A stretch of DNA of 27,233 nucleotides from a virus, in IMG/VR virus record IMGVR_UViG_3300030380_000554, positions 1 to 27,233 of that record, one strand, 5' to 3'. Below, one piece after another: positions 15,215 through 27,233 of this stretch. The translations under genes were made by a program, and so were the position numbers. Under the pieces are notes generated by a model, which was given only the letters and a program-made list of their open reading frames with translations, made no database searches and was not told the origin of the DNA. Numbering within the stretch: position 1 is the stretch's first letter; each line of letters opens with the position of its first letter.

Positions 15215-15367
15215 TTATTTCCCTTCATCATGGTCCAACATTGGACCTTCTTCTAGCTCGTCTTCAAGCTCTGCTTGCTCTTGAAAATAGGCTATATCAG
15301 AATCTCTCTCTGCCTGATCATTTTTTCTAGCCCAAGCTCTTTCACCTTCGTCAAATTCTATAGTCAT
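15215..15367 (-). CDS. Small acidic hypothetical protein, 50 aa
   Basis: MTIEFDEGERAWARKNDQAE followed by a Glu-rich helix (QEQAELEDELEEG) and MLDHDEGK. AAAGGA lies 6 nt before the ATG. Palindrome copy 4 falls inside its end, encoding Pro-Met-Leu-Asp, and the next gene starts 1 nt after its stop. Acidic small proteins of this sort can act as DNA mimics, but nothing here proves it. Confidence 0.65.
   Translation of the reverse strand: MTIEFDEGERAWARKNDQAERDSDIAYFQEQAELEDELEEGPMLDHDEGK
15233..15246. repeat. 14-bp palindrome copy 4 (GTCCAACATTGGAC)
   Basis: Inside the 3' end of the 50-aa gene, in a different reading frame from the copies at 14007 and 15639 (Pro-Met-Leu-Asp rather than Ser-Asn-Val-Gly). 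It lies just before the ribosome site of the next gene. Confidence 0.85.
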
Positions 15368-15471: not shown

Positions 15472-16050
15472 TTAAGCAGCCTTCCTTTCTTCGATAGTTT
15501 TGTTCATGGTGTCATTATGTTTAAGAAGATCAATCAACTCTGAGATCTCTATTTTATTGTTCTTACAAACAATTCCTAATGCTTTAGCTAAAGCAAACTT
15601 ATCAATTACCATGTCCTTTTTAATGGTAGGATTTGATGGTCCAACATTGGACTTTCCATCAGTCTCACTCTTTGTAGACTCTACATCTGTCTGAGGCGTA
15701 GTGTCATCAGACTTGTCAGCTTTTTTCATGGCAAACTGAAGAGCTGTAAGACTGGTAAAACCTTTCTTTGAGGTTTTTATGAAAGCTCTGCATTTGTCTT
15801 CATTAGTGACAAACCATAAAGCTTCAGCTCTTCGTCGTTCTCTGAGAAGATCAGAGGAAACTTTATTTGAGTTTGAACGAAGTCTCAGATTTTGCATCAG
15901 CTTTCCAAGCCGTGTGTCAAATCCATCAGACCTAGTGTCAGCTTTAAATTGCTTTTTGTCTTTGGCCTGTTTTTGATTCCAAAGATCACGAAGCTCTTTT
16001 CCTTCATTGATGTCTGAAGATGGTGCTGAAGTTTTTACTGAATTTTCCAT
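15472..16050 (-). CDS. Hypothetical protein, first gene of the leftward operon, 192 aa
   Basis: A charged protein. Residues 15-70 are basic and helical (ELRDLWNQKQAKDKKQFKAD), the middle has RERRRAEALWFVTNEDKCRA, and a polar Ser/Thr/Asp linker around 119-142 leads to a C-terminal helix pair (FALAKALGIVCKNNKIEISE). The C-terminal part could be a small helical binding domain. AAGGA lies 6 nt before the ATG at 16050; an open frame continues upstream to 16254 but without a better start. Palindrome copy 6 lies in the linker. As the promoter-proximal early gene it may be a regulator or host-takeover protein, by position only. Confidence 0.7.
   Translation of the reverse strand: MENSVKTSAPSSDINEGKELRDLWNQKQAKDKKQFKADTRSDGFDTRLGKLMQNLRLRSNSNKVSSDLLRERRRAEALWFVTNEDKCRAFIKTSKKGFTSLTALQFAMKKADKSDDTTPQTDVESTKSETDGKSNVGPSNPTIKKDMVIDKFALAKALGIVCKNNKIEISELIDLLKHNDTMNKTIEERKAA
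15639..15652. repeat. 14-bp palindrome copy 6 (GTCCAACATTGGAC)
   Basis: Inside the coding sequence of the 192-aa protein, in a low-complexity linker, encoding Ser-Asn-Val-Gly as in copy 2. It lies far from any gene start, so an operator role for this copy is less obvious. Confidence 0.85.
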
Positions 16051-16351
16051 TTGCTTTCCTTTATACTTAATTATCATTTTATAAGAGAATTTATATCTCT
16101 CACTAGAGTTCGAGATAAAATTATCGTTAAAATGTAAATAATTAAGATATAGTTTGCTGAAGCTGTCTCTCGTATGATCCTCTGTCCAAGCCGTTTCACG
16201 GGTGACTGCAAAAAATATTGACATATATTTTTGAAGTACATGCGCTAAACTCACGAGGCTTGGTGGTTTGGCTGTGGTATTTCAGCAACACTATCTATTA
16301 TGATCGAATAGGTCTTCGACATAGTGGGTAGGGTTAGCATCGACCCTTCAA

Positions 16352-16399
16352 CACACTCTTAGTGTGACAAATTGGCAACAACCTCACACTCTTAGTGTG
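16352..16399. promoter_or_regulatory. Two identical 15-bp dyads, CACACTCTTAGTGTG
   Basis: Copies at 16352-16366 and 16385-16399 are each a 6-bp inverted repeat around CTT. Start-to-start distance is 33 bp, about three helical turns, so two dimers would bind the same DNA face. Both are followed by a (G/A)CAA motif. This is the expected look of tandem operators. Confidence 0.65.
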
Positions 16400-16415
16400 G
16401 CAACTGACTGAGTAA

Positions 16416-16472
16416 CAGTTGTAAACAACTGGTAAGCCATTGTTTTCACTCAATCTTTCTCACCTTTGGTGA
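16416..16472. repeat. Two inverted repeats beside the tandem dyads
   Basis: CAGTTGT-AA-ACAACTG at 16416-16431 is a perfect 7-bp dyad. TCACC-TTT-GGTGA at 16460-16472 sits in a longer imperfect stem, CTTTC/GAAAG outside. Neither is followed by a clear T-run, so neither is a convincing terminator. Confidence 0.55.
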
Positions 16473-16699
16473 AAGTTAGCTGAGAAGAAGCTCCCACCAT
16501 TGCCATGACACGCAAGGTAAGGCGCAATTGCGTCAGTGGAGTGACCCCGTGCAGGGGGCAAAGGGGGGTATACGTTATATATATACATATAAACACACAG
16601 ATCAGGTATTTTCACTGTTAACCACTTTACGTACTCACAGAACCCCACACATTATGGAAGCTTATTTATCACTATTTGTATAATAATATATTTTTAGGG

Positions 16700-16727
16700 T
16701 TGACATGATATTCAATATGTGTAAAAC
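16700..16727 (+). promoter_or_regulatory. Candidate rightward promoter, TTGACA-16-TAAAAC
   Basis: A perfect -35 TTGACA at 16700-16705 with a 4/6 -10 TAAAAC at 16722-16727. It would give a leader of about 180 nt before the first late gene, passing through the CACTTAA boxes and the ATGATTAATCAT palindrome. Confidence 0.45.
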
Positions 16728-16748
16728 TAAGGATACTAACTAACTAAC

Positions 16749-16861
16749 CACTTAAAGTGATTCACTTAAAAAGATTATTAATTAAACTTTAATAACATTT
16801 AAATGATTAATCATTAAAAACGCCATACACTATTAATGTAACACTTAAATGTTACACTTAA
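16749..16861. repeat. Four CACTTAA heptamers and a 12-bp palindrome
   Basis: CACTTAA occurs at 16749-16755, 16763-16769, 16842-16848 and 16855-16861. The perfect palindrome ATGATTAATCAT lies at 16803-16814 between the pairs. The pair spacings (14 and 13 bp) are similar, suggesting repeated binding sites upstream of and within the proximal promoter. Confidence 0.5.
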
Positions 16862-16878
16862 CTGGTCTATGGTATAAA
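16838..16878 (+). promoter_or_regulatory. Candidate promoter with dyad over the -35, GTTACA-16-TATAAA
   Basis: The -35 GTTACA at 16851-16856 and -10 TATAAA at 16873-16878 are 16 bp apart, placing transcription start about 30 nt before the first late gene. The inverted repeat GTAACA-CTTAAA-TGTTAC (16838-16855) overlaps the -35, a classic place for repressor or activator control. Confidence 0.5.
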
Positions 16879-16913
16879 CCTATTTGTACAATTAATTTAA
16901 ATAAGTATTGACA

Positions 16914-17132
16914 ATGCCTAAAAAATCTGTAAAACTATACACAGATAATGTTTTAGAAGAGTTCTATAACCACACAGTACGTGGATCACTAGAGAATCTT
17001 CATATACCCCACAGTGATGTCTTCTATGTAAGAGAAGCCGTACAAAACCACTATGGTAGACCTTTCACTTTAAAGCACGTAGAAGAAGCTATGATTGCTG
17101 AGGGGTGGATTGATGGAAAGACCAAGGAGTAA
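16914..17132 (+). CDS. Hypothetical protein, first gene of rightward operon, 72 aa
   Basis: MPKKSVKLYTDNVLEEFYNH, then HIPHSDVFYVREAVQNHYGR and KHVEEAMIAEGWIDGKTKE. The second half looks like a small winged-helix or helix-turn-helix (FTLKHVEEAMIAEGW), so DNA binding is conceivable. The ATG has only a weak ribosome site; an in-frame TTG 6 nt upstream is an alternative. The gene lies about 30 nt after the predicted start of the dyad-controlled promoter, so autoregulation is possible but unproven. Confidence 0.7.
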   Translation: MPKKSVKLYTDNVLEEFYNHTVRGSLENLHIPHSDVFYVREAVQNHYGRPFTLKHVEEAMIAEGWIDGKTKE

Positions 17133-17136
17133 TTCA

Positions 17137-17232
17137 ATGAAATACATTTGGGATACAGTAAAAGAAAATAAATTACTAATCATTGCAGCTATTGTAATTG
17201 CAATATTAGCGTATAACTCAGTGTTTGGGTAA
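17137..17232 (+). CDS. Tiny single-span membrane protein, 31 aa
   Basis: MKYIWDTVKENKLLIIAAIV followed by IAILAYNSVFG: a short charged N-terminus and one transmembrane helix. AGGAG lies 7 nt before the ATG, and the next gene starts immediately after the stop. It heads the block of exported and membrane proteins. Confidence 0.7.
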   Translation: MKYIWDTVKENKLLIIAAIVIAILAYNSVFG

Positions 17233-17922
17233 ATGCCCCGTATACTGTCCTACATACTGGTAACACTACTTGTAACAGCTTGTAGTATGGCCTATGCAGC
17301 AGACAGTAACACTGTATCTAGCACTGTGGTGACAGATAAAGCCCCACCAACGGCCTCTGCACCCTCAGTGGTAGTAAATAACTCAGATATCTGTAAGTCA
17401 GGCGCAGCAGCCAGCGTACAAACGCAGGTGCTAGGGGTCGCTACAGGTATAACAATTACAGATGAGAACTGTGAGCGTATAAAGCTTGCACGTTCTCTCT
17501 ATGGTATGGGAATGAAGGTAGCTGCAGTGTCCACCCTCTGCAGAGACTACCGTGTCTTTGATGCAATGTGGATGTCTGGTACGCCCTGCCCCTTCATGGG
17601 TAAGATAGGGAACGAAGCCAAGACTGCATGGGAAAACAATTTAGATGTTATGCCTGAAGATTCAGAGATACGGTTAAAGGAAGAAGAAAAACAAGCAGCT
17701 TTAGTATTAGCACAGAAACATAAACGAGATAATGAGAAGCTTGCCTTAATAGAAAAAGAAAAACAAGACAGACAAGCTAAACTAGATCAAGCTAGAGCAG
17801 ATAGAAAGAAAGAAAAGGAAGCTAAGAAGAAAGCTAAGAAAGAAAAAAGGGCAAACAATGAAGATAAGAAATATCTGTGGTTTAAGCCTCTTGGCACTGT
17901 CCTTATGCTACTCCTTATCTAA
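17233..17922 (+). CDS. Exported/lipoprotein-like phage protein with Lys-rich coiled-coil tail, 229 aa
   Basis: The signal peptide is at residues 1-23. LVTAC (13-17) fits a lipobox with Cys17, and AYA-A at 20-23 is an alternative signal peptidase I site. The central block SVQTQVLGVATGITITDENC then KLARSLYGMGMKVAAVSTLC and MSGTPCPFMG, with four conserved-looking Cys, recurs in marine phage genomes without a function. Residues about 145-212 are a Lys/Glu coiled coil. The last 16 residues (YLWFKPLGTVLMLLLI) are hydrophobic and lie in the 65-nt overlap with the next gene. Probably anchored in or exported through the inner membrane. Confidence 0.78.
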   Translation: MPRILSYILVTLLVTACSMAYAADSNTVSSTVVTDKAPPTASAPSVVVNNSDICKSGAAASVQTQVLGVATGITITDENCERIKLARSLYGMGMKVAAVSTLCRDYRVFDAMWMSGTPCPFMGKIGNEAKTAWENNLDVMPEDSEIRLKEEEKQAALVLAQKHKRDNEKLALIEKEKQDRQAKLDQARADRKKEKEAKKKAKKEKRANNEDKKYLWFKPLGTVLMLLLI

Positions 17923-19525
17923 GGCAGAAGAGGTATGCCCATCAGGAACGGTGGGTCTTTGTGATCCTACAGTACTAGAAACAATAGTAGAGACTGTAGA
18001 TGTAACGACTCAAAACGATGGACAAGGAACTTTAACGACCACCGTAACAACAACTGTAACAACTACAGACACTGTAACAAACGAAGACTCAGGTAACCTT
18101 ATATCATCTGACTCTACTTATGTATCATCTAGCAAACAAGGTGATATGGATACAGATTGGGGTGGTCAAGGCCCAGCAAGTATGCCCAGCGGTAGTTCGT
18201 GTGGTAGTTTAGGCACAGATAAGTGTGCCATGATAACTGGGAGTGGTAACTCAACATCCACAATGGGTGTACCTAACATGGGTACTACTTTTAAACAAAC
18301 GATAAATATATCTAGTCTAAATATAACAAAAGGTGGAAAGACAACCTATACCATAAAAGTAGATAAGCAAGATGCTAGTGATAGTATCTACATGCATATT
18401 ACAGGTAAAAATGGAAACACCACTTCTTTTGCAGGAACAGACATACTATCAGCAGCAGGTACAGCAAGCGGATATGCAGAGTACTCTGGTGGTTTTGACT
18501 TTGCTGACTCTCTTACTTCTCTTATCGTTGAAATAGGGGGCAGAGATATCAACTTGGCTGTAGGGCCAATGTTTGACGATGTGACGATCAATGTGTTGTA
18601 TAACGTAGTCAGTCAGATTGTATTGCAGTCAATAACGACAGTTGAACAATACGTACTACAGAATGATGGTGCTAGTGAAACAGAGATAGAAATAGTAAAA
18701 GATATCTTTGATAATAACATACCAGTAGAACAACCAGATGGTAACTTAGACTTTGAGCCAATAGATGGGGGAGACACAAACGAAGATTCATATGAATCCG
18801 TAGAACTAGAACTAGAGCTAGAGTTTGAAATGGATTTTGAGATGGACTTAGAAATGCCAGATATGGATCTAGAGTTTGATATGCCAGACATGACAATGGA
18901 AGCTCCAGTAACTGCAGTAGATGTAGAAATGGAAATGGACATAGAAGTTGTAGAAGTAACAGAAGCACCAGTAGAAGAAATAGAAGTGGCAGCAGTAGAG
19001 CCTGAACCAGCAGAGAGTACTCCTGAACCAGAGCCACAAAAAGAAACAGTAGAAACAGAACCTGAGTCACAGCCAGAACCTGAAACGCAAGACGAACCAG
19101 AAGCAGAGACTCAGGAAGAAGAAGTAAAGGAAGAGCCTAAAAAAGAAGAGGCTAAACCTGAACCTAAGAAAGAAGAAACAAAAAAGCCTGTAACAAAAGT
19201 AGCAAAAAAGAAAGTTGCTAAACCTAAAACTAAAGCACAGAAAAAAGAAGCTAAAGAAAAAGCAGGTAGTAAGATCGTTAAGAAGATGGGTGACAAAGGC
19301 AGATATGATTCTGCTAATCAATTAAAGACACTCATTGTAATGCAGGTATTAGGAGACACCAAGGAGTTCTTTTCAGCACAAAAGATGTTGCCAGATATTC
19401 AAGGTTTCTTTACAAGTGGGGTCGTACCTGATGCAGAAATAAAAGATAATAACTTTGCGTCTTTTATGTTAACAGGAAAATCTCATGTAAATATGAATGC
19501 ATTAATTGATTTGCAATATAAATAA
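17858..19525 (+). CDS. Large exported protein with acidic then basic TonB-like tracts, 555 aa
   Basis: A clear signal peptide (MKIRNICGLSLLALSLCYSL, cleavage near SKA-E). Residues 45-90 are Thr-rich; 140-260 look like a beta domain (TYTIKVDKQDASDSIYMHIT). Residues 314-346 are a strict acidic/hydrophobic alternation (ELELELEFEMDFEMDLEM), 381-415 a Glu-Pro tract, 427-477 a Lys-Pro-Ala basic tract, and 478-555 a compact C-terminal domain. The EP-then-KP order resembles the periplasm-spanning part of TonB. AAGGG lies 6 nt before the ATG. Function unknown; a cell-envelope or virion role is inferred from export and position. Confidence 0.75.
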   Translation: MKIRNICGLSLLALSLCYSLSKAEEVCPSGTVGLCDPTVLETIVETVDVTTQNDGQGTLTTTVTTTVTTTDTVTNEDSGNLISSDSTYVSSSKQGDMDTDWGGQGPASMPSGSSCGSLGTDKCAMITGSGNSTSTMGVPNMGTTFKQTINISSLNITKGGKTTYTIKVDKQDASDSIYMHITGKNGNTTSFAGTDILSAAGTASGYAEYSGGFDFADSLTSLIVEIGGRDINLAVGPMFDDVTINVLYNVVSQIVLQSITTVEQYVLQNDGASETEIEIVKDIFDNNIPVEQPDGNLDFEPIDGGDTNEDSYESVELELELEFEMDFEMDLEMPDMDLEFDMPDMTMEAPVTAVDVEMEMDIEVVEVTEAPVEEIEVAAVEPEPAESTPEPEPQKETVETEPESQPEPETQDEPEAETQEEEVKEEPKKEEAKPEPKKEETKKPVTKVAKKKVAKPKTKAQKKEAKEKAGSKIVKKMGDKGRYDSANQLKTLIVMQVLGDTKEFFSAQKMLPDIQGFFTSGVVPDAEIKDNNFASFMLTGKSHVNMNALIDLQYK

Positions 19526-19541
19526 AAGGAAATAGATTAGC

Positions 19542-19724
19542 ATGGCTGTTAAAAAGAAATCAACGGTAAACAAGGCTGGTAATTATACAAAACCTACCAT
19601 GCGTAAAAGACTTTTTAATAGTGTAAAAGCCGGAAGTAAAGGTGGAAAGGCAGGTCAATGGTCTGCCCGTAAAGCCCAACTTCTTGCTAAAAAATATAAA
19701 GCTGCAGGTGGTGGGTACAAGTAG
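19542..19724 (+). CDS. Small basic conserved phage protein, 60 aa
   Basis: A Lys-rich protein with the diagnostic end KAGSKGGKAGQWSARKAQLL followed by KKYKAAGGGYK. I recognise this motif from many marine phages and from large eukaryotic viruses (DUF5872-type, from memory). The role is unknown; strong positive charge suggests nucleic-acid or capsid-interior binding. AAAGGA lies before the ATG, and the stop overlaps the next gene's GTG by one base. Confidence 0.75.
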   Translation: MAVKKKSTVNKAGNYTKPTMRKRLFNSVKAGSKGGKAGQWSARKAQLLAKKYKAAGGGYK

Positions 19725-19969
19725 TGGCCTTAAAACCGAGTCAGAAAAGTCTTAAATCGTGGACTAAACAAAAGTGGCGTACTAAAAGTGGTAAGCCATC
19801 AAGCAAGACAGGTGAACGCTACTTACCTACTAGTGCAATTAAATCTTTGTCTAGTAGTGAGTACGCTGCAACCACACGTAAGAAACGAGAAGATACTAAA
19901 AAAGGTAAACAGTTTAGCAGACAGCCACAGGGTGTAGCTAAAAAGACCAAACGGTATAGGAAAGTATAA
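19724..19969 (+). CDS. Small basic conserved phage protein, 81 aa, GTG start
   Basis: (M)ALKPSQKSLKSWTKQKWRTK then SGKPSSKTGERYLPTSAIKS and EYAATTRKKREDTKKGKQFS. The W-x-K-Q-K-W-R-T-x-S-G-K-P-S motif is a familiar marine phage family of unknown role. The GTG overlaps the previous TAG, so it is probably read by reinitiation. Very basic, like its neighbour. Confidence 0.75.
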   Translation: MALKPSQKSLKSWTKQKWRTKSGKPSSKTGERYLPTSAIKSLSSSEYAATTRKKREDTKKGKQFSRQPQGVAKKTKRYRKV

Positions 19970-19970
19970 T

Positions 19971-20294
19971 ATGTCTAAGAAATTAGAGAATGGCTCTAAA
20001 TACGCTATTGCTGACACAGATGGTGATGGCGTTATTACAGACGAAGAAATGGACCGCCATGAACGGTGGGTGCGTTTAGAAAACGAAGACAAACTTATGG
20101 ATACACAACGCATAATGGCGTGGTTAGCTATGGCTACAAGTATTCTTACTGTTGTACTACTATTGACACCAATCATAAATACTGCTAGAATGGAAAGTGC
20201 TTCAGGATTCTTAAATACTTTTCTTGTAGCTCAAATGGGGGTTGTCTTAGGTTTTATGGGAGCAACAGCTTTAAGTAAAACCAAGACACACTAG
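19971..20294 (+). CDS. Membrane protein with EF-hand-like calcium loop, 107 aa
   Basis: Residues 15-26, DTDGDGVITDEE, form a canonical EF-hand loop with the D-x-D-x-D-G pattern and terminal Glu. Two transmembrane helices follow, about 49-67 (WLAMATSILTVVLLLTPII) and 81-100 (LNTFLVAQMGVVLGFMGATA). This combination recurs in marine phages. Calcium binding by the cytoplasmic N-terminus and a role near lysis or virion assembly are inferences. Confidence 0.78.
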   Translation: MSKKLENGSKYAIADTDGDGVITDEEMDRHERWVRLENEDKLMDTQRIMAWLAMATSILTVVLLLTPIINTARMESASGFLNTFLVAQMGVVLGFMGATALSKTKTH

Positions 20295-20306
20295 TTAGGA
20301 TAATAC

Positions 20307-20948
20307 ATGGCAGAAGTAGAAATAGGTGGAGCTAAAATTACAGGTGGTAAACTGTTTTGGGCTTTACCGTTATTAGGAGCATTAGGCTCTGGTGCATGGG
20401 GTGGATTTACTTTGTACCAAGAATTTTTAGACTTACGTGAAGCTACAGAAAACTATGTATCGCCTGATTTGTCTCATATAGATAATCACATTACTATGGT
20501 AGAAGGTGAGTTAGGTATTATAGGTGCGGAGTTTAAAGCCCTCAAAGAAGTAGATGCTGCAACTGGAGCAGTTATACGAGAGCAGATCAACTCAGTTAAA
20601 GCTATATCTGCTCAACTACAAACAGATCTACATGATCTACGAATGGATCTTAACCAAGATACAGCAGAGACAAACAACGCTATTGAAGTTAAGTCAGACA
20701 AGATAAACGCTAATATAGATAAACAAGAAGCACGTTTAGAAAAACAAGACTCTCGTAATCGTCAGAACATAGAAGATGTACGAGGCGTTATTAATACATT
20801 TGAACTACGGTTTGAATCTACTATCAGTTCTTTTGAAGAACGTATGGATGCTAAGATGTCTAAGCTAGATCAAAAGCTTGATAACTTAGAATCAGCACTA
20901 GATAAAAAGATACAACGTGCAATAGATAACCCACTGGCAGGAAATTAA
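20307..20948 (+). CDS. Membrane-anchored coiled-coil protein, 213 aa
   Basis: A short N-terminus, one transmembrane helix at about 15-37 (LFWALPLLGALGSGAWGGFT), then a long coiled coil from about 60 to 205 (RFESTISSFEERMDAKMSKL) ending KKIQRAIDNPLAGN. The architecture suggests a membrane-tethered spacer, possibly a spanin-like or envelope-bridging protein, but no Rz-type signature or lipobox partner is visible. It follows the EF-hand gene by 12 nt and the next start is immediate. Confidence 0.7.
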   Translation: MAEVEIGGAKITGGKLFWALPLLGALGSGAWGGFTLYQEFLDLREATENYVSPDLSHIDNHITMVEGELGIIGAEFKALKEVDAATGAVIREQINSVKAISAQLQTDLHDLRMDLNQDTAETNNAIEVKSDKINANIDKQEARLEKQDSRNRQNIEDVRGVINTFELRFESTISSFEERMDAKMSKLDQKLDNLESALDKKIQRAIDNPLAGN

Positions 20949-21224
20949 ATGGTAGAGTATAGAGGTGAAAAATTTTCAGGGTACAACAAACCTAAACGTA
21001 CACCTAAACATTCAAGTAAATCCCATGTAGTACTAGCCAAAGAAGGTAGTACAATTAAAATGATACGCTTTGGTGAACAAGGCGCAAGCACAGCAGGTAA
21101 GCCTAAAGCAGGTGAGTCTGCCCGTATGAAGGCTAAACGTAAAAGTTTTAAAGCACGACACGGTAGGAATATAGCCAAGGGCAAGCTGAGTGCTGCGTAT
21201 TGGGCTAATAAAGTCAAATGGTAA
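20949..21224 (+). CDS. Small basic conserved phage protein, 91 aa
   Basis: YRGEKFSGYNKPKRTPKHSS, SHVVLAKEGSTIKMIRFGEQ, KAKRKSFKARHGRNIAKGKL then SAAYWANKVKW: a motif set I recall across T4-like and T7-like marine phages (DUF6321-type, from memory). The role is unknown. The KRKSFKARH block resembles a nucleic-acid-binding basic helix. It abuts the preceding stop. Confidence 0.78.
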   Translation: MVEYRGEKFSGYNKPKRTPKHSSKSHVVLAKEGSTIKMIRFGEQGASTAGKPKAGESARMKAKRKSFKARHGRNIAKGKLSAAYWANKVKW

Positions 21225-21237
21225 AGGATATCAAGCA

Positions 21238-21675
21238 ATGGCTCCAAAAAAAGATTTAATAGAAGCTGCAGCAAAACTTTTAAAAGGCGGTGGAAAAAAA
21301 GGTAGTAGAGGAATTTCAGGTCCATCTATGACCTCTAAACAATATGGACAAAAACAAAGAGAATTACAAAATGTAATAAATACATCAAAGTCAGCTAGTT
21401 TAGTAGCAGCAGCTAAAAAAACACTTGCGGCTTTAGATAGAAAGTTTTCAAGGGAAAAACTTAGTTCTGATGCAAAAAGATCAGGATCTAAAAAAGTAAC
21501 TTTAGGTAGTATGCGTAAAGGTAAAGCAGACAAAGACTTTAACAAAGGTGGTATGCCTAAAAAAGATCATGGTAAATCTGGATCATATGGTAAAGCATAT
21601 ATGAAAGGTGGAATGGCTACAGACATGCGTAAGACAGGAATGTTCAAGGGTGGATACTCCACTAAGAAAAAATAA
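21238..21675 (+). CDS. Basic protein with KGGM repeats, 145 aa
   Basis: An N-terminal helix MAPKKDLIEAAAKLLKGGGK, a middle coiled region (KTLAALDRKFSREKL), then repeated Lys-Gly-Gly-Met/Tyr units (FNKGGMPKKDHGKSG, YMKGGMATDMRKTG, MFKGGYSTKKK). I start at 21238, where AAAGGA lies 9 nt upstream; an open frame runs back to 21190 inside the previous gene. The repeat style is shared with the gene at 22383-22574. Possibly an internal virion or DNA-condensing protein, by composition only. Confidence 0.75.
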   Translation: MAPKKDLIEAAAKLLKGGGKKGSRGISGPSMTSKQYGQKQRELQNVINTSKSASLVAAAKKTLAALDRKFSREKLSSDAKRSGSKKVTLGSMRKGKADKDFNKGGMPKKDHGKSGSYGKAYMKGGMATDMRKTGMFKGGYSTKKK

Positions 21676-21881
21676 TGTGGACACCGTTAGTACTTATGTG
21701 TTCTATGTATGTAACCACAGATTGTGCAACATACGGTGGACCAATATTTAAAACGGAAGCTGCATGTTATCAAGGAATGGAAGATATAGGATTACCCTAT
21801 TTAAGACAAAAGTTTCCTAGTCATATTGCACGTGCTAAAAAGTGTGTGTACTGGGATGTGAAAGACAAAATAGATACTTAA
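21675..21881 (+). CDS. Small four-cysteine protein, 68 aa
   Basis: MWTPLVLMCSMYVTTDCATY then FKTEAACYQGMEDIGLPYLR and ARAKKCVYWDV. The N-terminus is mildly hydrophobic and could be a weak signal sequence; four Cys (9, 17, 31, 57) would suit disulfides outside the cytoplasm. The start overlaps the previous stop (TAATG). No family assigned. Confidence 0.68.
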   Translation: MWTPLVLMCSMYVTTDCATYGGPIFKTEAACYQGMEDIGLPYLRQKFPSHIARAKKCVYWDVKDKIDT

Positions 21882-21897
21882 TTAGAAAGGATAGACA

Positions 21898-22140
21898 ATG
21901 GATAAAATGAAATCGTCAATCGCAAGTATAACAGAAATGGGCATTGCTCTTATTACACTATCAATAGTAGCATCAGTACTTGTAGGACCAAGCAACTTAA
22001 TTTTTCTTGGTAATGCAGTAGGAAATATTATTGACCTAGTTGAAAATCTAGGAAGTTCAGGACTTGCTGGACTCATTGTTGCAGGGATTGTACTACACCT
22101 ATTTGGGTGGTGCGGTTTTTGTGATTGCAAAAAGAAGTAA
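21898..22140 (+). CDS. Two-helix membrane protein, 80 aa, holin-like in shape
   Basis: Two hydrophobic segments at about 14-37 (MGIALITLSIVASVLVGPSN) and 54-71 (SGLAGLIVAGIVLHLFGWCG), separated by an acidic loop, with a Cys-Lys tail (CGFCDCKKK). AAAGGA lies 6-7 nt before the ATG. It could be a second holin or antiholin, since a three-helix holin lies 400 bp downstream, but other small membrane roles fit as well. Confidence 0.68.
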   Translation: MDKMKSSIASITEMGIALITLSIVASVLVGPSNLIFLGNAVGNIIDLVENLGSSGLAGLIVAGIVLHLFGWCGFCDCKKK

Positions 22141-22154
22141 AATGCATAACGGAC

Positions 22155-22183
22155 TTGCAAACTTAGCTGTTTTATGTTATAAC
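22155..22183 (+). promoter_or_regulatory. Promoter for the DUF1127 gene, TTGCAA-17-TATAAC with TGn
   Basis: The -35 TTGCAA at 22155-22160, exactly 17 bp, then -10 TATAAC at 22178-22183 preceded by TGT, an extended -10. It is the best sigma70-type promoter seen in the window and lies in the widest gap of the right arm (22141-22248). Confidence 0.6.
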
Positions 22184-22208
22184 TAGATATGATATAACTC
22201 CTATTATA

Positions 22209-22229
22209 TAAGTCAGAACAATTGACTTA
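22209..22229. promoter_or_regulatory. Inverted repeat in the DUF1127 leader
   Basis: TAAGTCA (22209-22215), 7-nt spacer, TGACTTA (22223-22229). It lies between the predicted transcription start and the AAAGGAG ribosome site, so it could be an operator or an RNA stem limiting translation. Confidence 0.5.
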
Positions 22230-22248
22230 AACATAAAAGGAGAAAGAT

Positions 22249-22395
22249 ATGTTTAAAAGATTATGGAATAAAGCAGTTAAATTGCAAGAACGTAGAGCAA
22301 ACTATTGGAAACTAAAAAATATGACAGATAGAGAACTCAGAGATATTGGTGTTTCTCGCTACGATATTGAAAGGGGATTAATATGCCGGGAATGA
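22249..22395 (+). CDS. DUF1127 (YjiS-like) small protein, 48 aa
   Basis: MFKRLWNKAVKLQERRANYW then KLKNMTDRELRDIGVSRYDI matches the DUF1127 signature: a basic amphipathic helix followed by L-x-x-M-x-D-R-E-L-x-D-I-G-V-x-R-x-D-I. Members are abundant in Alphaproteobacteria, where one (CcaF1 of Rhodobacter) is reported to bind RNA and affect mRNA decay. AAAGGAG lies 6 nt before the ATG. The gene has its own promoter and operator-like repeat, and overlaps the next gene by 13 nt. A host-derived regulator acting on transcripts is the favoured inference. Confidence 0.82.
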   Translation: MFKRLWNKAVKLQERRANYWKLKNMTDRELRDIGVSRYDIERGLICRE

Positions 22396-22574
22396 AGAAA
22401 AAACCTGCTTCTAGTCAAAAAGGGCTTAAAAAGTTACCTACTGCTGTACGTAACAAGATGGGCTACATGAAAGCTGGGGGTATGGCTAAGAAAAAAATGA
22501 TGGGTGGCGGCATGGCTAAAAAGAAACCTACAACAAAAATGATGTATGGTGGAATGGCTAAGAAAAAGAAATAA
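22383..22574 (+). CDS. Basic GGMAKKK-repeat protein, 63 aa
   Basis: MPGMKKKPASSQKGLKKLPT then three GGMAKKK-type repeats (AGGMAKKK, GGGMAKKK, YGGMAKKKK). Extremely basic and Met/Gly-rich. It resembles the C-terminal repeats of the 145-aa protein at 21238. The start lies inside the end of the DUF1127 gene, and its stop overlaps the holin ATG. Role unknown; a structural or DNA-neutralising function is plausible. Confidence 0.75.
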   Translation: MPGMKKKPASSQKGLKKLPTAVRNKMGYMKAGGMAKKKMMGGGMAKKKPTTKMMYGGMAKKKK

Positions 22575-22972
22575 TGTTAGCTCAACTTATATCACCTGTC
22601 ACTGGTCTTCTCGACAAGTTTATTGAAGATAAAGACCAAAAGAATGCTCTCGCTCACGAGATAAGCACGATGGCTGAACGCCATGCTCAGGAACTAGCTA
22701 TGTCTCAGATTAAAGTTAATCAAGAAGAGGCAAAGTCTGGTTCCTTATTTATTGGTGGGTGGAGACCTTTTGTAGGTTGGATCTGTGGAATTGCGTTACT
22801 ATATCACTTTATCTTACAGCCTTGTATCTTATTCTTTGCTACAATGTTTGGAGCTACACTACCACCACTACCTGCATTTGATATGGGTAGTCTTATGACT
22901 GTTCTTATGGGTATGCTAGGATTGGGCGGTTTACGTAGCTATGAAAAGAGCAAAGGCATTGCTAAAAAATGA
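22574..22972 (+). CDS. Holin, three-TM gene-transfer-agent type
   Basis: Makes the inner-membrane lesions that release endolysin. A charged N-terminal helix (residues 1-53) precedes the family hallmark GSLFIGGWRPFVGWICGIAL (56-75), then a second hydrophobic segment LQPCILFFATMFG and a third MGSLMTVLMGMLGLGGLRSY with a basic tail. This matches the Holin_3TM family known from alphaproteobacterial gene transfer agents and marine phages. It overlaps the endolysin start by 4 nt, forming a lysis pair. Confidence 0.88.
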   Translation: MLAQLISPVTGLLDKFIEDKDQKNALAHEISTMAERHAQELAMSQIKVNQEEAKSGSLFIGGWRPFVGWICGIALLYHFILQPCILFFATMFGATLPPLPAFDMGSLMTVLMGMLGLGGLRSYEKSKGIAKK

Positions 22973-23487
22973 GTGAAGCAAACTTTTCTAAATGTTTAGA
23001 TATGCTCTTACATCACGAAGGTGGCTTTGTAAATCATCCTGACGATCCGGGTGGTATGACAAATTTAGGTGTTACAAAAGCTGTATATGAAAAGTACATC
23101 AAACGTAATGCTACTGAAGCTGAAATGAGAGCTTTAACAAAAACAGAAGTATCTCCAATATATAAAACTAACTATTGGGATAGAGGAAAATGTGATGATT
23201 TACCTAGTGGAGTGGATTGGTCTGTTTTTGATTGGGGCGTTAATAGTGGCATGGGCAGGGCAGCAAAAGCGTTGCAGTTTATTGTTGGCTCTACTGTTGA
23301 TGGTGGCATTGGCCCTAACACACTAAGAGATGTAGCTAAACATAAACCACATGACATTATAGTAGAGATGCATCAAGCACGACAAAAGTTTTACGAAGGA
23401 CTATCTACTTTTTCTACCTTTGGTAGAGGATGGTCACGTAGAAACAATGAGACATTAGAAACAGCATTAGAAATGGCAGGAGAATAA
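22969..23487 (+). CDS. Endolysin, glycoside hydrolase family 108 muramidase
   Basis: Cleaves peptidoglycan at lysis. The catalytic motif is HHEGGFVNHPDDPGGMTNLG (15-34) with Glu17, diagnostic for GH108 (ZliS-like). A helical core VFDWGVNSGMGRAAKALQFI and the C-terminal peptidoglycan-binding segment DGGIGPNTL then RQKFYEGLSTFSTFGRGWSR follow, as in complete members of about 170 residues. There is no N-terminal signal sequence, so release depends on the upstream holin. Confidence 0.93.
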   Translation: MSEANFSKCLDMLLHHEGGFVNHPDDPGGMTNLGVTKAVYEKYIKRNATEAEMRALTKTEVSPIYKTNYWDRGKCDDLPSGVDWSVFDWGVNSGMGRAAKALQFIVGSTVDGGIGPNTLRDVAKHKPHDIIVEMHQARQKFYEGLSTFSTFGRGWSRRNNETLETALEMAGE

Positions 23488-23488
23488 T

Positions 23489-23662
23489 ATGGCAAAAGGC
23501 GTACAACATTATTATAAGGACGGTAGGAAGTTTAATGGGAACACTCATAAAATGCCTAATGGATCTTTACACACAGGTAAGACACATACTAAAGGTTCTA
23601 AAGTTGTGGTTCATTTTAAAGATCTTTCAGCAACAGCAAAAAAACGAGCAAAAAGTACCTAG
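23489..23662 (+). CDS. Small basic conserved phage protein, 57 aa
   Basis: MAKGVQHYYKDGRKFNGNTH then KMPNGSLHTGKTHTKGSKVV and FKDLSATAKKRAKST: a His/Lys/Gly-rich repeat-like protein I recognise from many marine phages, without a known role. It begins 1 nt after the endolysin stop. Like the other basic small proteins of this arm it may be packaged or help condense DNA, by inference only. Confidence 0.72.
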   Translation: MAKGVQHYYKDGRKFNGNTHKMPNGSLHTGKTHTKGSKVVVHFKDLSATAKKRAKST

Positions 23663-23685
23663 ATATTTAGCAGGAAGAAAAAATA

Positions 23686-24057
23686 ATGGCACGTGAATTA
23701 ACAGAAAAACAACAAAAGTTTTTACATGTTTTGTTTGATGAGGCAGGTGGCGATGCAGCTATTGCAAAAAAACTTGCTGGCTATGCACCTACGTATAATA
23801 CAAGTGAATTAGTAAATAGTCTTAAAGAAGAAATACTAGAAGCAACACAATCTTATATGGCACGTAATGCTCCTAAAGCTGCAATGTCTATAGTAGGTGG
23901 TTTATACGAACCAACTGAACTAGGTATACGTGATAAGTTAAGTGCAGCAAAAGAACTGCTAGATCGTACAGGTTTAGTAAAAACTGAAAAAGTACAAGTA
24001 GAAGCTAAAGGTGGTGTTATGTTAATGCCACCTAAAGTTGTATCTCAAGATGACTGA
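23686..24057 (+). CDS. Putative terminase small subunit, 123 aa
   Basis: The N-terminus ARELTEKQQKFLHVLFDEAG then GDAAIAKKLAGYAPTYN is a helix-turn-helix of the small-terminase type (ELTEKQ-x-FL start). Residues 90-110 (DKLSAAKELLDRTGLVKTE) form the usual oligomerisation helix, followed by a short beta end (GGVMLMPPKVV). It would bind phage DNA at the packaging site and load the large subunit two genes downstream. It overlaps the next gene by 8 nt. Confidence 0.75.
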   Translation: MARELTEKQQKFLHVLFDEAGGDAAIAKKLAGYAPTYNTSELVNSLKEEILEATQSYMARNAPKAAMSIVGGLYEPTELGIRDKLSAAKELLDRTGLVKTEKVQVEAKGGVMLMPPKVVSQDD

Positions 24058-24460
24058 TAGATCTCTTGGCAAGTGGAAACTACCGCAGCCTATAGATATA
24101 CAAGAAAATAATGAATGGGTAAAGATACCTAGAATATCACGAACCATACCATTTGGGTATGAAGAAGACACAGAAGACAATGCCATATTAAATCCAATCC
24201 CTGACCAACTTGACAAACTTGAAATGGCAAAAAAGTATTTAAAACAATACTCATATCGTGAAGTATCAAACTGGTTGACTACAAATACTGGTAGATCTAT
24301 ATCTCACGTAGGTTTAAGGAAACGATTGGACAATGAGCAAAGACGAAATAACAAAGCTAGAAGCTTACGCCAGTGGGCAGAGTATGCAGAAAAGGCGATC
24401 TCCAAAGCGAAAGAAATTGAAGAAAGTCGCACAGGAGCAAAAGAAGCCGCAACAATCTAA
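24050..24460 (+). CDS. Conserved phage protein with helix-turn-helix, between terminase genes, 136 aa
   Basis: MTDRSLGKWKLPQPIDIQEN then NEWVKIPRISRTIPFGYEED and the segment YSYREVSNWLTTNTGRSISH, which reads as a recombinase-like helix-turn-helix, followed by a basic helix GLRKRLDNEQRRN. It is familiar from marine T7-like phages next to terminase. It may take part in packaging-site recognition. I use the ATG at 24050; an in-frame TTG lies 12 nt upstream. Its last 128 nt overlap the large terminase gene. Confidence 0.72.
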   Translation: MTDRSLGKWKLPQPIDIQENNEWVKIPRISRTIPFGYEEDTEDNAILNPIPDQLDKLEMAKKYLKQYSYREVSNWLTTNTGRSISHVGLRKRLDNEQRRNNKARSLRQWAEYAEKAISKAKEIEESRTGAKEAATI

Positions 24461-25910
24461 AGTTATTGAAACAACAAATATAGATTTTGTTAAAGTAAAA
24501 AAACTAGAAGAAGATCACAATATAATTTTTAAGCCAAACGATGGCCCACAAACAGATTTTCTAGCGGCAAGTGAACGAGAAGTATTATATGGTGGCAGTG
24601 CTGGTGGTGGTAAATCCTACGCAATGCTTGCAGACCCTCTGAGGTATATGGGGCATCCTGCGTTTAGTGGTCTACTACTACGACACACAACGGAAGAGTT
24701 ACGTGAACTTATATTCAAATCACAAGAGATGTACCCCAAGATATGGCCCGGAATCAAATGGTCTGAAAGAAAGATGCAGTGGACCGCGCCATCTGGCGCA
24801 AGGTTGTGGATGTCGTATCTTGATAGAGAAGACGATGTCTTGCGTTATCAGGGTCTGGCATTTAGCTGGATAGGCTTTGACGAATTAACTCAATGGGCCA
24901 CACCATATGCATGGGATTACATGCGGTCTCGTCTACGGTCTACTGCACCTGACCTACCTATCTTTATGAGGGCAACTACAAACCCCGGAGGTAGAGGACA
25001 CCACTGGGTTAAAAAAATGTTTATTGACCCTGCGATACCAAACAAGGCTTTTGAAGCTACAGACATAGAAACTGGAGAAGCATTAAAGTATCCAGCAGGA
25101 CACGAAAAAGCAGGTATATCTTTATTTAAACGTAGATTTATACCAGCACGACTAAAAGATAATCCATACTTAGCAGAAGCAGGTGACTATGAAGCAATGC
25201 TCTTGTCACTACCAGAACAGCAAAGACGACAGCTACTAGACGGTGATTGGGATATTAAAGAAGGCGCAGCCTTTACAGAGTTTAATAGAGACCTACATGT
25301 TATTGAACCGTTTGATATACCAAGTAACTGGGTAAGATTTAGAGCCTGTGACTATGGATATGGAAGTAAATCTGGAGTAGTATGGTTTGCTTGCGCCCCT
25401 AATGAACAGTTAATTGTTTACAGAGAACTGTATGTAGGTAAAGTACTAGCTACAGATTTAGCAGATAGAATACTGGAATTAGAAGCAGGTGATGGTACTA
25501 TTAGATATGGGGTTTTGGATAGTTCTCTTTGGCACAAAAGAGGGGATACTGGGCCTAGTCTTGCAGAGCAGATGGTAAGTAGAGGTTGTCGTTGGAGACC
25601 GTCAGATAGAAGTAAAGGATCAAGAGTAGCAGGTAAAAATGAAATACATAGACGGTTACAAGTAGATGAATTTACAGAAGAACCAAGGCTTGTATTTTTT
25701 AATAACTGTACAAATATAGTTTCTCAATTACCAGCTATACCATTGGATAAAAAAAATCCAGAAGACATTGATACAAATAGCGAAGACCACTTGTATGATG
25801 CATTAAGGTATGGTATTATGTCAAGACCAAGGTTTAGTATATTTGACTACGATCCACACGGACGACCCCAATCTAGTATGCCAATGGCAGACAAAACTTT
25901 TGGATATTAA
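24333..25910 (+). CDS. terL: Terminase large subunit (packaging ATPase and nuclease)
   Basis: Drives DNA into proheads and cuts concatemers. Walker A is GGSAGGGKS (87-95), Walker B WIGFDEL with D183/E184, the coupling motif TTNPGG (215-220), and the C-terminal RNase H-like nuclease begins with D340 in RACDYGYGS, continues with VLDSSLW and ends with DHLYDALRYG. The first 50 residues are Lys-rich and lie in the overlap with the previous gene. The ATG at 24333 has AAGGA 12 nt upstream; Met18 at 24384 is an alternative. Length 525 is normal. Confidence 0.95.
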   Translation: MSKDEITKLEAYASGQSMQKRRSPKRKKLKKVAQEQKKPQQSKVIETTNIDFVKVKKLEEDHNIIFKPNDGPQTDFLAASEREVLYGGSAGGGKSYAMLADPLRYMGHPAFSGLLLRHTTEELRELIFKSQEMYPKIWPGIKWSERKMQWTAPSGARLWMSYLDREDDVLRYQGLAFSWIGFDELTQWATPYAWDYMRSRLRSTAPDLPIFMRATTNPGGRGHHWVKKMFIDPAIPNKAFEATDIETGEALKYPAGHEKAGISLFKRRFIPARLKDNPYLAEAGDYEAMLLSLPEQQRRQLLDGDWDIKEGAAFTEFNRDLHVIEPFDIPSNWVRFRACDYGYGSKSGVVWFACAPNEQLIVYRELYVGKVLATDLADRILELEAGDGTIRYGVLDSSLWHKRGDTGPSLAEQMVSRGCRWRPSDRSKGSRVAGKNEIHRRLQVDEFTEEPRLVFFNNCTNIVSQLPAIPLDKKNPEDIDTNSEDHLYDALRYGIMSRPRFSIFDYDPHGRPQSSMPMADKTFGY

Positions 25911-25921
25911 AGGTATTATAA

Positions 25922-27233
25922 ATGGCAGAAGATCAAGAATTTACAGATGACGAACAAGTCGTATTAGAAGACTCTGAAGACTCAGGAGTTGATGATGCTA
26001 ATATTAGTGCTATTATTCCGTTTGTCATGGATAGATATAAACGTGCTGATGATTACAGACAACAAGATGAAGATAGATGGCTAAGATCGTACCGTAACTA
26101 TAGAGGTATCTATGGGTCTGATGTTCAGTTTACTGAAGCGGAAAAGTCTAGAGTATTTATTAAAGTCACAAAAACAAAAACACTTGCAGCCTACGGACAA
26201 ATTGTAGATGTATTATTTGCAAGTAATAAGTTTCCACTTACAGTTGAGCCTACAATATTACCTGAAGGTGTTGTAGGTGATGTACACTTTGATCCAAAAG
26301 AACCAGAGCAACTTAGAAACTCAGAGCTTGATGAGCCTGTAAGTCCTTATGGATACAAAGGTGATGGAAAAGAGATACCTGCAGGAGCTACAGCAAAAAC
26401 ATTATCAGAAAGTTTAGGACCACTAGGAGATAAACTAGATGACATTGAAGGTGTTAAAGCAGGTACAGGTAAAACTCCTACTGCAATAACCTTTAGTCCA
26501 GCTATGATTGCTGCAAAAGCAATGCAAAAGAAAATACAGGATCAACTAGAAGAGTCTAGTGCTAATAAACATTTACGTAGTACAGCATTTGAAATGGCAT
26601 TATTTGGCACAGGAATAATGAAAGGTCCATTTGCTGTAGATAAAGAGTATCCTAATTGGGATGAAGAAGGTGAATATTCGCCAAGAATTAAAACTGTACC
26701 ACAAGTATCCCATGTATCTGTTTGGAACTTTTATCCAGACCCAGATGCAAACAATATAGATGAAGCACAGTATGTAATTGAACGTCATAAGATGTCTCGT
26801 TCACAGTTAATTGCATTGAAAAAACGTCCTTACTTTAGAGCGTCAGTAATTGATGATGCAATCATGCAAGGCACAAACTATACAAAAGAGTCATGGGAAG
26901 ATGATTTATCTGACTATGCACCTGAATATGGAGTAGAACGCTATGAAGTCCTTGAGTATTGGGGTATGTGTGATTATGATATGTTGGTGGAGCAGGGTAT
27001 TGAAATCCCTGCAGAACTTGAGGGAGTTGACGAACTACAGGCAAATATATGGATTTGTAATGGTAAACTCTTGCGTATGGTACTTAATCCATTTAAACCT
27101 GCTACCATTCCTTACATGGCTGCGCCATATGAATTGAACCCTTACTCTTTCTTTGGTATAGGTATTGCAGAAAATATGGACGATACCCAAACACTTATGA
27201 ATGGGTTTATGCGTATGGCTGTAGATAATGCAG
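25922..27233 (+). CDS. Portal (head-tail connector) protein, N-terminal 437 residues, cut by window edge
   Basis: Forms the dodecameric ring at the capsid vertex through which terminase pumps DNA. Recognised by position right after terminase and by the podovirus-type portal pattern: an acidic N-terminus, IIPFVMDRYKRADDYRQQDE, RWLRSYRNYRGIYG, then a clip/stem region with VSHVSVWNFYPDPDANNIDE and the typical MAAPYELNPYSFFGIGIAEN with DDTQTLMNGFMRMAVDNA near the window end. The gene is open to base 27233 with no stop. Confidence 0.88.
   Translation, partial: MAEDQEFTDDEQVVLEDSEDSGVDDANISAIIPFVMDRYKRADDYRQQDEDRWLRSYRNYRGIYGSDVQFTEAEKSRVFIKVTKTKTLAAYGQIVDVLFASNKFPLTVEPTILPEGVVGDVHFDPKEPEQLRNSELDEPVSPYGYKGDGKEIPAGATAKTLSESLGPLGDKLDDIEGVKAGTGKTPTAITFSPAMIAAKAMQKKIQDQLEESSANKHLRSTAFEMALFGTGIMKGPFAVDKEYPNWDEEGEYSPRIKTVPQVSHVSVWNFYPDPDANNIDEAQYVIERHKMSRSQLIALKKRPYFRASVIDDAIMQGTNYTKESWEDDLSDYAPEYGVERYEVLEYWGMCDYDMLVEQGIEIPAELEGVDELQANIWICNGKLLRMVLNPFKPATIPYMAAPYELNPYSFFGIGIAENMDDTQTLMNGFMRMAVDNA

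Follow-up and report, generated by a model that had tools for sequence, protein, structure and literature searches.

The window, that is, the whole stretch of DNA analysed here, is a 27233-base virus record and represents a partial genome. Its TerL is 83.0% identical to that of HMO-2011, 82.1% identical to that of CRP-345, and 81.6% identical to that of CRP-1. The window also encodes a DnaB-like helicase, an endonuclease I, and an integrase. As judged from sequence, with HMO-2011 providing the closest TerL in the phage collection and with matching replication genes, the phage is of the HMO-2011 type. The sections of PMC6918029 and PMC9038755 on HMO-2011-type phages describe a terminase and a gene layout that the window has in common with them, although HMO-2011 itself is without the DUF1127 module described below.

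The locus consists of a small DUF1127 gene, a leader that contains two -10 sequences, an upstream element that we call E, and a predicted RNA stem (Table 1). The gene is followed by tightly packed genes, the first of which, a 63-aa ORF, overlaps the DUF1127 stop; the TerS-like assignment among them scored below the Pfam cutoff. Two small proteins rich in Lys, Met, and Gly are encoded on the plus strand at 22383-22574 and 21190-21675, the first with GGMAKKK-like repeats, and neither had a Pfam or PHROG match up to an E value of 1. The plus-strand ORF at 17858-19525 (555 aa) contains a long, acidic, repetitive stretch rich in Pro, Glu, and Lys.

Table 1. Features of the DUF1127 locus in the window
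Feature	Position	Strand	Details
Element E	22144..22159	+	GCATAACGGACTTGCA; consensus about GCATARCGG-GKWTKC
Promoter P1	22155..22183	+	TTGCAA (22155-22160), 17 nt, TATAAC (22178-22183); extended -10 TG (TGT before the -10); predicted start about 22190
Promoter P2	22190..22198	+	TGATATAAC; second -10 TATAAC at 22193-22198, extended -10 without recognisable -35; predicted start about 22205
5' arm of predicted SD-hiding stem	22198..22202	+	CTCCT; shares its first base with the end of the P2 -10
Inner hairpin	22209..22229	+	TAAGTCA-N7-TGACTTA; arms 22209-22215 and 22223-22229
Shine-Dalgarno (SD)	22237..22242	+	AAGGAG; 22238-22242 (AGGAG) is the 3' arm of the stem
DUF1127 ORF	22249..22395	+	48 aa; Pfam match and composition
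Tightly packed genes 3' of DUF1127	22383..25910	+	63-aa ORF, holin, GH108 endolysin, small ORF, TerS-like, TerL

The 48-aa product matched Pfam DUF1127 (PF06568) with 35 bits against a cutoff of 23.3 (E value, 1.2e-8). Residues 6 to 41 aligned with positions 2 to 37 of the 37-position profile, and the match was recovered in a search of the whole virus record. The HMM search, a check that the preliminary description had proposed, thus confirmed its family assignment. NCBIfam gave no match for this ORF. The protein contains 8 Arg, 5 Lys, and 7 Asp plus Glu residues, and D27, L30, D32, G34, R37, and I40 are invariant in an alignment of 25 phage DUF1127 sequences. The protein is helical in an AlphaFold2 model of moderate confidence (mean pLDDT 74, pTM 0.37), with helices at residues 2-23, 27-32, and 37-41. 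A profile search of solved structures returned weak matches alone (best E value, 0.019), and these were not used.

Small cellular DUF1127 proteins, such as the Agrobacterium SDPs, Rhodobacter CcaF1, and E. coli YjiS, have the same Pfam domain and are arginine-rich. Unlike them, the window gene is encoded by a marine phage and has its own leader. One plasmid-borne homologue of the phage protein was found. The Agrobacterium and E. coli work, in the sections of PMC12501420 that bear on it, reports that cellular DUF1127 proteins bind the sensor kinase PhoR and restrain phosphate uptake, and it includes cross-species complementation. CcaF1 binds RNA, according to the relevant part of PMC10253847. 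By analogy, the phage protein may bind PhoR or RNA. The action on host or phage transcripts suggested in the preliminary description would correspond to RNA binding, one of these two published activities. A full-text literature search, judged by titles and abstract openings, returned no paper on DUF1127 together with "roseophage" and none on a phage DUF1127 gene. The words "DUF" and "promoter" were absent from the main texts of the roseophage and HMO-2011 papers examined.

Element E and the two -10 sequences

We collected 344 DUF1127 places, which gave 334 leaders after removal of 5 cut by contig ends, 1 copy of the window, and 4 with shared starts. A strongly conserved block was seen within the 120 nt upstream of the homologues. 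This element E has the summary pattern GCATAACGG..TTGC and stands at a fixed distance before the -10 hexamer of P2. It is a loose dyad, which reads GCATA-N5-TATGC in some lineages. E with at most 3 mismatches, followed by a -10 at 37 to 41 nt, was present in 219 of 231 unique leaders (P2 lying 38 to 41 nt from the E reference base), many of these loci having been fetched by E itself. Among unique leaders fetched by protein similarity, 46 of 52 had E and the -10 at the fixed distance, and among shuffled leaders 2 of 2310 did. The remaining 6 of the 52 are three cobaviruses without E, two leaders with E at four mismatches, and one misassigned start. The 12 of 231 that failed the rule comprise 3 cobaviruses without E, 2 leaders with E at 4 mismatches and the -10 present, 4 with doubtful start-codon choices, 1 with TACAAC, and 2 with E but no TATAAY. 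That the gene has its own conserved promoter region in the 46 leaders supports the earlier proposal that it is controlled separately, and it may be expressed at a different time from its neighbours, as also suggested there.

In viral contigs, the 15-mer CATAACGGGGTTGCA occurs at no fewer than 120 loci, and 77 of the 80 matches listed have a DUF1127 ORF less than 400 nt downstream; the other three have no TATAAY in place. For two E variants, DUF1127 follows in 36 of 64 matches and in 89 of at least 120 (120 scored), and 57 of the 59 variant matches without DUF1127 are also without the -10. The discordant variant matches were L383, at a contig end; L326, a chance match; and L274 and L317, which have DUF1127 without TATAAY. 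Elsewhere in the window, further matches to E were at chance level. CRP-1 has one E copy in 48 of 54 kb (L214), and the whole CRP-1 has one further match at 2 mismatches. E was also considered as an RNA hairpin, judged by eye, and was dropped because leaders of the ATTCC class show no pairing between its half-sites. We infer that E may be bound by an activator or by another factor that selects P2.

The right half of E is the -35 of P1. P1 is present as the preliminary description had given it, including the extended -10, but clearer sites exist in the window. A hand count gives it 9 of 12 consensus positions, whereas the best sigma-70-like site by consensus in 16000-27233, at 20163-20191 on the plus strand and inside an ORF, matches 11 of 12 and has TG. 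That region contains 27 promoter-like sites, compared with a mean of 32.6 (sd 6.1) in shuffles, and P1 is missing from the scan because the scan demands a final T. The form of P1, the only form scanned in genome_contigs, had one match there, not before a DUF1127 gene, which was taken as chance. From this sequence alone, the promoter and the inverted repeat of the leader could both be chance; we take them as real because they are conserved in relatives. Features beyond those first described are the second -10, the conserved element around the -35, and the SD pairing of 22198-22202.

The P2 hexamer reads TATAAC in 165 of the 219 unique leaders, TAAAAC in 39, and TATAAT in 15. At P1, 100 of them have a TATAAY -10, 25 have TAnnnY, and 94 have neither. 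For the TATAAY group, the distance from P1 to P2 is 14 nt (45 leaders) or 15 nt (55 leaders). In an earlier set of 140 leaders, TG preceded P1 in 96 of 98 TATAAY cases and P2 in just 73 of 140, and P2 is without a clear -35. We defined 39 lineages by less than 75% leader identity; in 18 of them, E reads neither TTGC nor TTGT at the P1 -35. P1 is unconserved there, and E and P2 are kept. The 39 leaders with TAAAAC, a weaker -10, at P2 include 23 with a TATAAY P1, 2 with TAnnnY, and 14 with no P1 -10.

DUF1127 relatives are encoded in 186 of 199 pattern-matched stretches of viral contigs (the best 80 of the 186 were kept), and by these matches DUF1127 homologues are common in marine phages. At E values up to 1, 36 phage records matched DUF1127; 17 are named Roseobacter phages, and the others are mostly phages that infect other alphaproteobacteria. 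All 11 listed Roseobacter isolates of the HMO-2011 type have DUF1127, with E at three or fewer mismatches in 10 and at four in CRP-212. The whole genomes of HMO-2011, ctYwJ313, HTVC033P, HTVC115P, RHph_N3_19, and phiM6 gave no DUF1127 match (0 of 6; CRP controls, 4 of 4). Their closest matches to E are 6 places with 2 mismatches, the same number as for a reversed control pattern. An E-like place in ctYwJ313 with 4 mismatches and TATAAC at 40 was taken as chance. The comparison suggests that the DUF1127 module is tied to the host lineage.

Of 150 leaders followed by 3 kb or more of sequence, 146 have TerS and 143 have TerL downstream on the same strand; homologues of the holin (11) and endolysin (17) of the window are rarer. 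In the sequences compared, the DUF1127 gene, its leader, and E co-occur at a single genomic position, ahead of the packaging genes. In HMO-2011, an annotated methanesulfonate monooxygenase (L400 3456-4538) lies a few kb upstream of the terminase, in the region that holds DUF1127 in the Roseobacter relatives. The cobaviruses SIO1, CRP-5, and CRP-6 (L085, L092, L093) have DUF1127 without E or the -10 pair. Their gene immediately follows another one, which is MazG in CRP-5 and CRP-6; it is differently controlled and perhaps separately acquired. It also sits close upstream of ribonucleotide reductase.

At the lambda Q late promoter, transcription starts and pauses, and an antitermination factor is loaded. 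By the same scheme, P1 would be the start, the second -10-like sequence at about +3 would be a sigma-dependent pause, and an antitermination factor at E would join the polymerase for the downstream terminase and structural genes. The constant 14 to 15 bp between the two -10 sequences and the TerS and TerL genes downstream would suit this scheme. However, HMO-2011 has neither DUF1127 nor E above chance level genome-wide despite its closely related TerL, so the packaging genes can do without both. Moreover, Pfam recognised no Q-like gene in the 29 ORFs of the partial genome, and the scheme would leave unexplained the leaders without P1 and the covarying stem described below. We therefore consider it very unlikely.

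An RNA stem that pairs the Shine-Dalgarno sequence

In the minimum-free-energy (MFE) fold of 22190-22275 (-14.4 kcal/mol), the CTCCT arm pairs with AGGAG of the SD. This fold is better than most shuffles (z -2.89), with 3 of 200 as good. Nested in it is the inverted repeat TAAGTCA-N7-TGACTTA, which was found where the preliminary description had placed it. As for the repeat alone, the window contains 14 perfect 7-bp inverted repeats with loops of 3 to 12, against a mean of 23.9 in 20 shuffles. The inner region folds better than mononucleotide shuffles (z below -1.5, mean -2.9) in 21 of 21 lineages, namely those of the 39 whose representative has 20 nt or more from P2+12 to the SD. Rfam gave 0 matches up to an E value of 1 in the window.

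Because the MAFFT alignment A2 shifts the register of the stem between lineages, we used an arm-swap test in place of a pair count. Across the 39 lineages, the native arms paired with a mean of -11.39 kcal/mol, compared with -7.97 (sd 0.35) for permuted arms, and 0 of 20000 permutations reached the native value. The test was also done with 61 P2-anchored leaders, a set from which leaders longer than 75 nt and two whose arm precedes the -10 were excluded and in which the windows overlap in 3. The values were -11.53 and -7.81 (sd 0.31), again with 0 of 20000. The first run, on 32 lineages among which were still 3 cobaviruses and a leader with a wrong start, likewise gave weaker pairing in all 20000 permutations. 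The MFE fold of each of the 61 leaders contains 5 or more pairs between the arm and the SD, with 600 Watson-Crick and 36 G-U pairs. Read by eye, the arm pairs of different lineages include CTATCTCC/GGAGATAG, CTACTCCT/AGGAGTAG, CTATCCTC/GAGGATAG, and GGTATAACT../..AGTTATACC; the arms vary, and they contain no conserved motif beyond the SD complement. At the level of sequence comparison, these results show that a stem pairing the SD with an upstream arm is kept by covariation.

These results also bear on control at the DNA level, in which the repeats would be repressor or activator operators overlapping the promoter and the SD pairing would be a by-product. The repeat is indeed a perfect 7-bp dyad, and E is conserved, loosely dyad-symmetric, and at a fixed distance from the -10. 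However, the repeat arms change from lineage to lineage without losing their pairing, and some of the pairs are G-U. One of the arms is the SD region itself, and in every test all 20000 permutations gave weaker pairing once the arms had been swapped. We consider DNA-level control by the repeats very unlikely. The operator role first suggested for the repeat is disfavoured, which leaves E, not the repeats, as the candidate operator.

In 30 of the 39 lineages, the SD-pairing arm lies within P2-2 to P2+16, and in another 5 it comes ahead of the -10; in these 35 it precedes or overlaps the predicted P2 start. In the other 4, the MFE fold places the SD partner downstream of P2+16. Two of the five lineages with the arm before the -10, L042 and L185, look AT-rich and are doubtful. 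Because of this arrangement, readthrough RNA and P1 RNA should hide the SD, and P2 RNA should free it.

Predicted accessibilities are consistent with this. Across the 39 lineages, the SD is predicted to be unpaired at 0.24 in readthrough RNA, 0.29 in P1 RNA, and 0.67 in P2 RNA, and the gain from readthrough to P2 exceeds 0.2 in 33 lineages, with a loss in 0. For the 219 unique leaders, the values are 0.25, 0.27, and 0.71, with a gain in 184 and a loss in 1. SD accessibility steps up for 5' ends from P2+4 to P2+12, and the peak at P2+12 is the expected start. In the native leaders of 29 lineages, the SD goes from 0.18 to 0.68 unpaired (gain 0.49), compared with 0.45 to 0.55 in shuffled leaders (20 shuffles per lineage; gain 0.10, largest replicate 0.20). 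Opening the region from -13 to +4 takes a predicted 11.2 kcal/mol in readthrough RNA versus 3.9 in P2 RNA; it is more than 2 kcal/mol cheaper in P2 RNA in 35 of 39 lineages and costlier in 0.

Opening the DUF1127 start region of the window is predicted to take 10.2 kcal/mol, whereas 39 other, hand-chosen ORF starts average 4.7 (sd 2.2); it is the second most closed of the 40 tested. The sole ORF start above it, at 15231 on the minus strand (10.9 kcal/mol), has GGTCCAATGTTGGACC directly before the ATG. The start codon is mostly paired even in P2 RNA (unpaired 0.39 versus 0.21 in readthrough RNA, 39 lineages). Its accessibility falls by more than 0.2 in P2 RNA in 3 of 39 lineages and 23 of 219 leaders. 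In the predicted P2 RNA of the window, 22228-22235 pairs with 22248-22255, a segment that includes the AUG.

The same stem could serve as a translational operator on the P1 message. Here P1 would be the working promoter, the mRNA would normally begin with the stem, and the DUF1127 protein itself, another protein, or an sRNA would open or close the stem in trans. The second TATAAC would be kept as part of the stem and of the transcript start. Roughly half of the lineages have the better promoter form (TTGCA-17-TGnTATAAC) at P1, and the predicted P1 start falls just before the arm, given the 14- to 15-nt spacing. The 23 leaders with a TATAAY P1 and a TAAAAC P2 agree with it, because the obvious promoter there would make locked RNA, and CcaF1 is an RNA-binding DUF1127 protein in the relevant part of PMC10253847. 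However, the 94 leaders without a P1 -10 keep E, P2, and the lock as a group (SD unpaired 0.34 in readthrough RNA and 0.68 in P2 RNA). In CRP-235 and CRP-738, the arm lies before a TATAAT -10, so RNA from that promoter would be unable to form the stem. In addition, the arms vary, with nothing conserved beyond the SD complement. We regard an operator on the P1 message as possible but doubtful.

Proposed promoter choice and comparison with known systems

The best explanation, and one that we think is probably correct, is a promoter-embedded translation lock on the phage DUF1127 gene. RNA that reads in from upstream genes or begins at P1 would include the arm and be poorly translated. RNA started at P2 would be without the arm, its SD would be exposed, and the protein would be made. 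E would bind an activator or other factor that picks P2 at a certain stage. The DUF1127 protein would then be made only at that stage, though the gene stands among co-directional genes; this stage-specific form of the lock assumes earlier readthrough from upstream into DUF1127. Judging from its cellular relatives, the protein might tune host PhoR or host RNA.

The 23 leaders with TATAAY at P1 and TAAAAC at P2 fit the lock less well, and they leave room for opening of the P1 message by a factor acting in trans. A promoter-choice switch is a further, tentative proposal, which we regard as possible but doubtful. In it, the two overlapping promoters, 14 to 15 bp apart, would make nearly identical messages, locked from P1 and open from P2, and their ratio would be set by a factor, perhaps of the Roseobacter host, that recognises E.

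In the account of T4 genes e, soc, 49, and I-TevI given in part of PMC3014915, the SD and/or start codon lies in an RNA helix of long transcripts, and for gene e, transcripts from promoters in the 5'-strand region leave the SD free. Similarly, by prediction and covariation, the SD of the phage DUF1127 gene is sequestered in the long transcript. The arm is at or before the predicted P2 start (35 of 39 lineages), and the SD is predicted to be largely unpaired (0.67) in RNA from that start. A T4-type late promoter reads TATAAATA. In contrast, the DUF1127 leaders have no T4 late promoter: their P2 hexamer is TATAAC, TAAAAC, or TATAAT, and E stands upstream of it. The gene would thus work like gene e and yet be no T4 late gene. 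The promoters are sigma-70-like, often with a second one 14 to 15 bp upstream whose predicted RNA stays locked. The phage group also differs, and the locked gene is a host-like regulator.

In S. meliloti, a DUF1127 gene is governed through its 5' leader. For this chromosomal gene, duf1127-1, the portion of PMC12218461 on its leader describes a translated uORF and Rho-dependent attenuation. Unlike that leader, the phage leader has no recognised uORF, and its SD is predicted to be occluded.

These likenesses suggest that the trick of T4 gene e is used in a quite different phage group too. If the lock holds, the locked gene is a host-like regulator gene of marine Roseobacter phages. Given the restraint that its cellular relatives place on the Pho regulon, the phage DUF1127 gene would allow a direct test of phage control over host phosphate uptake.
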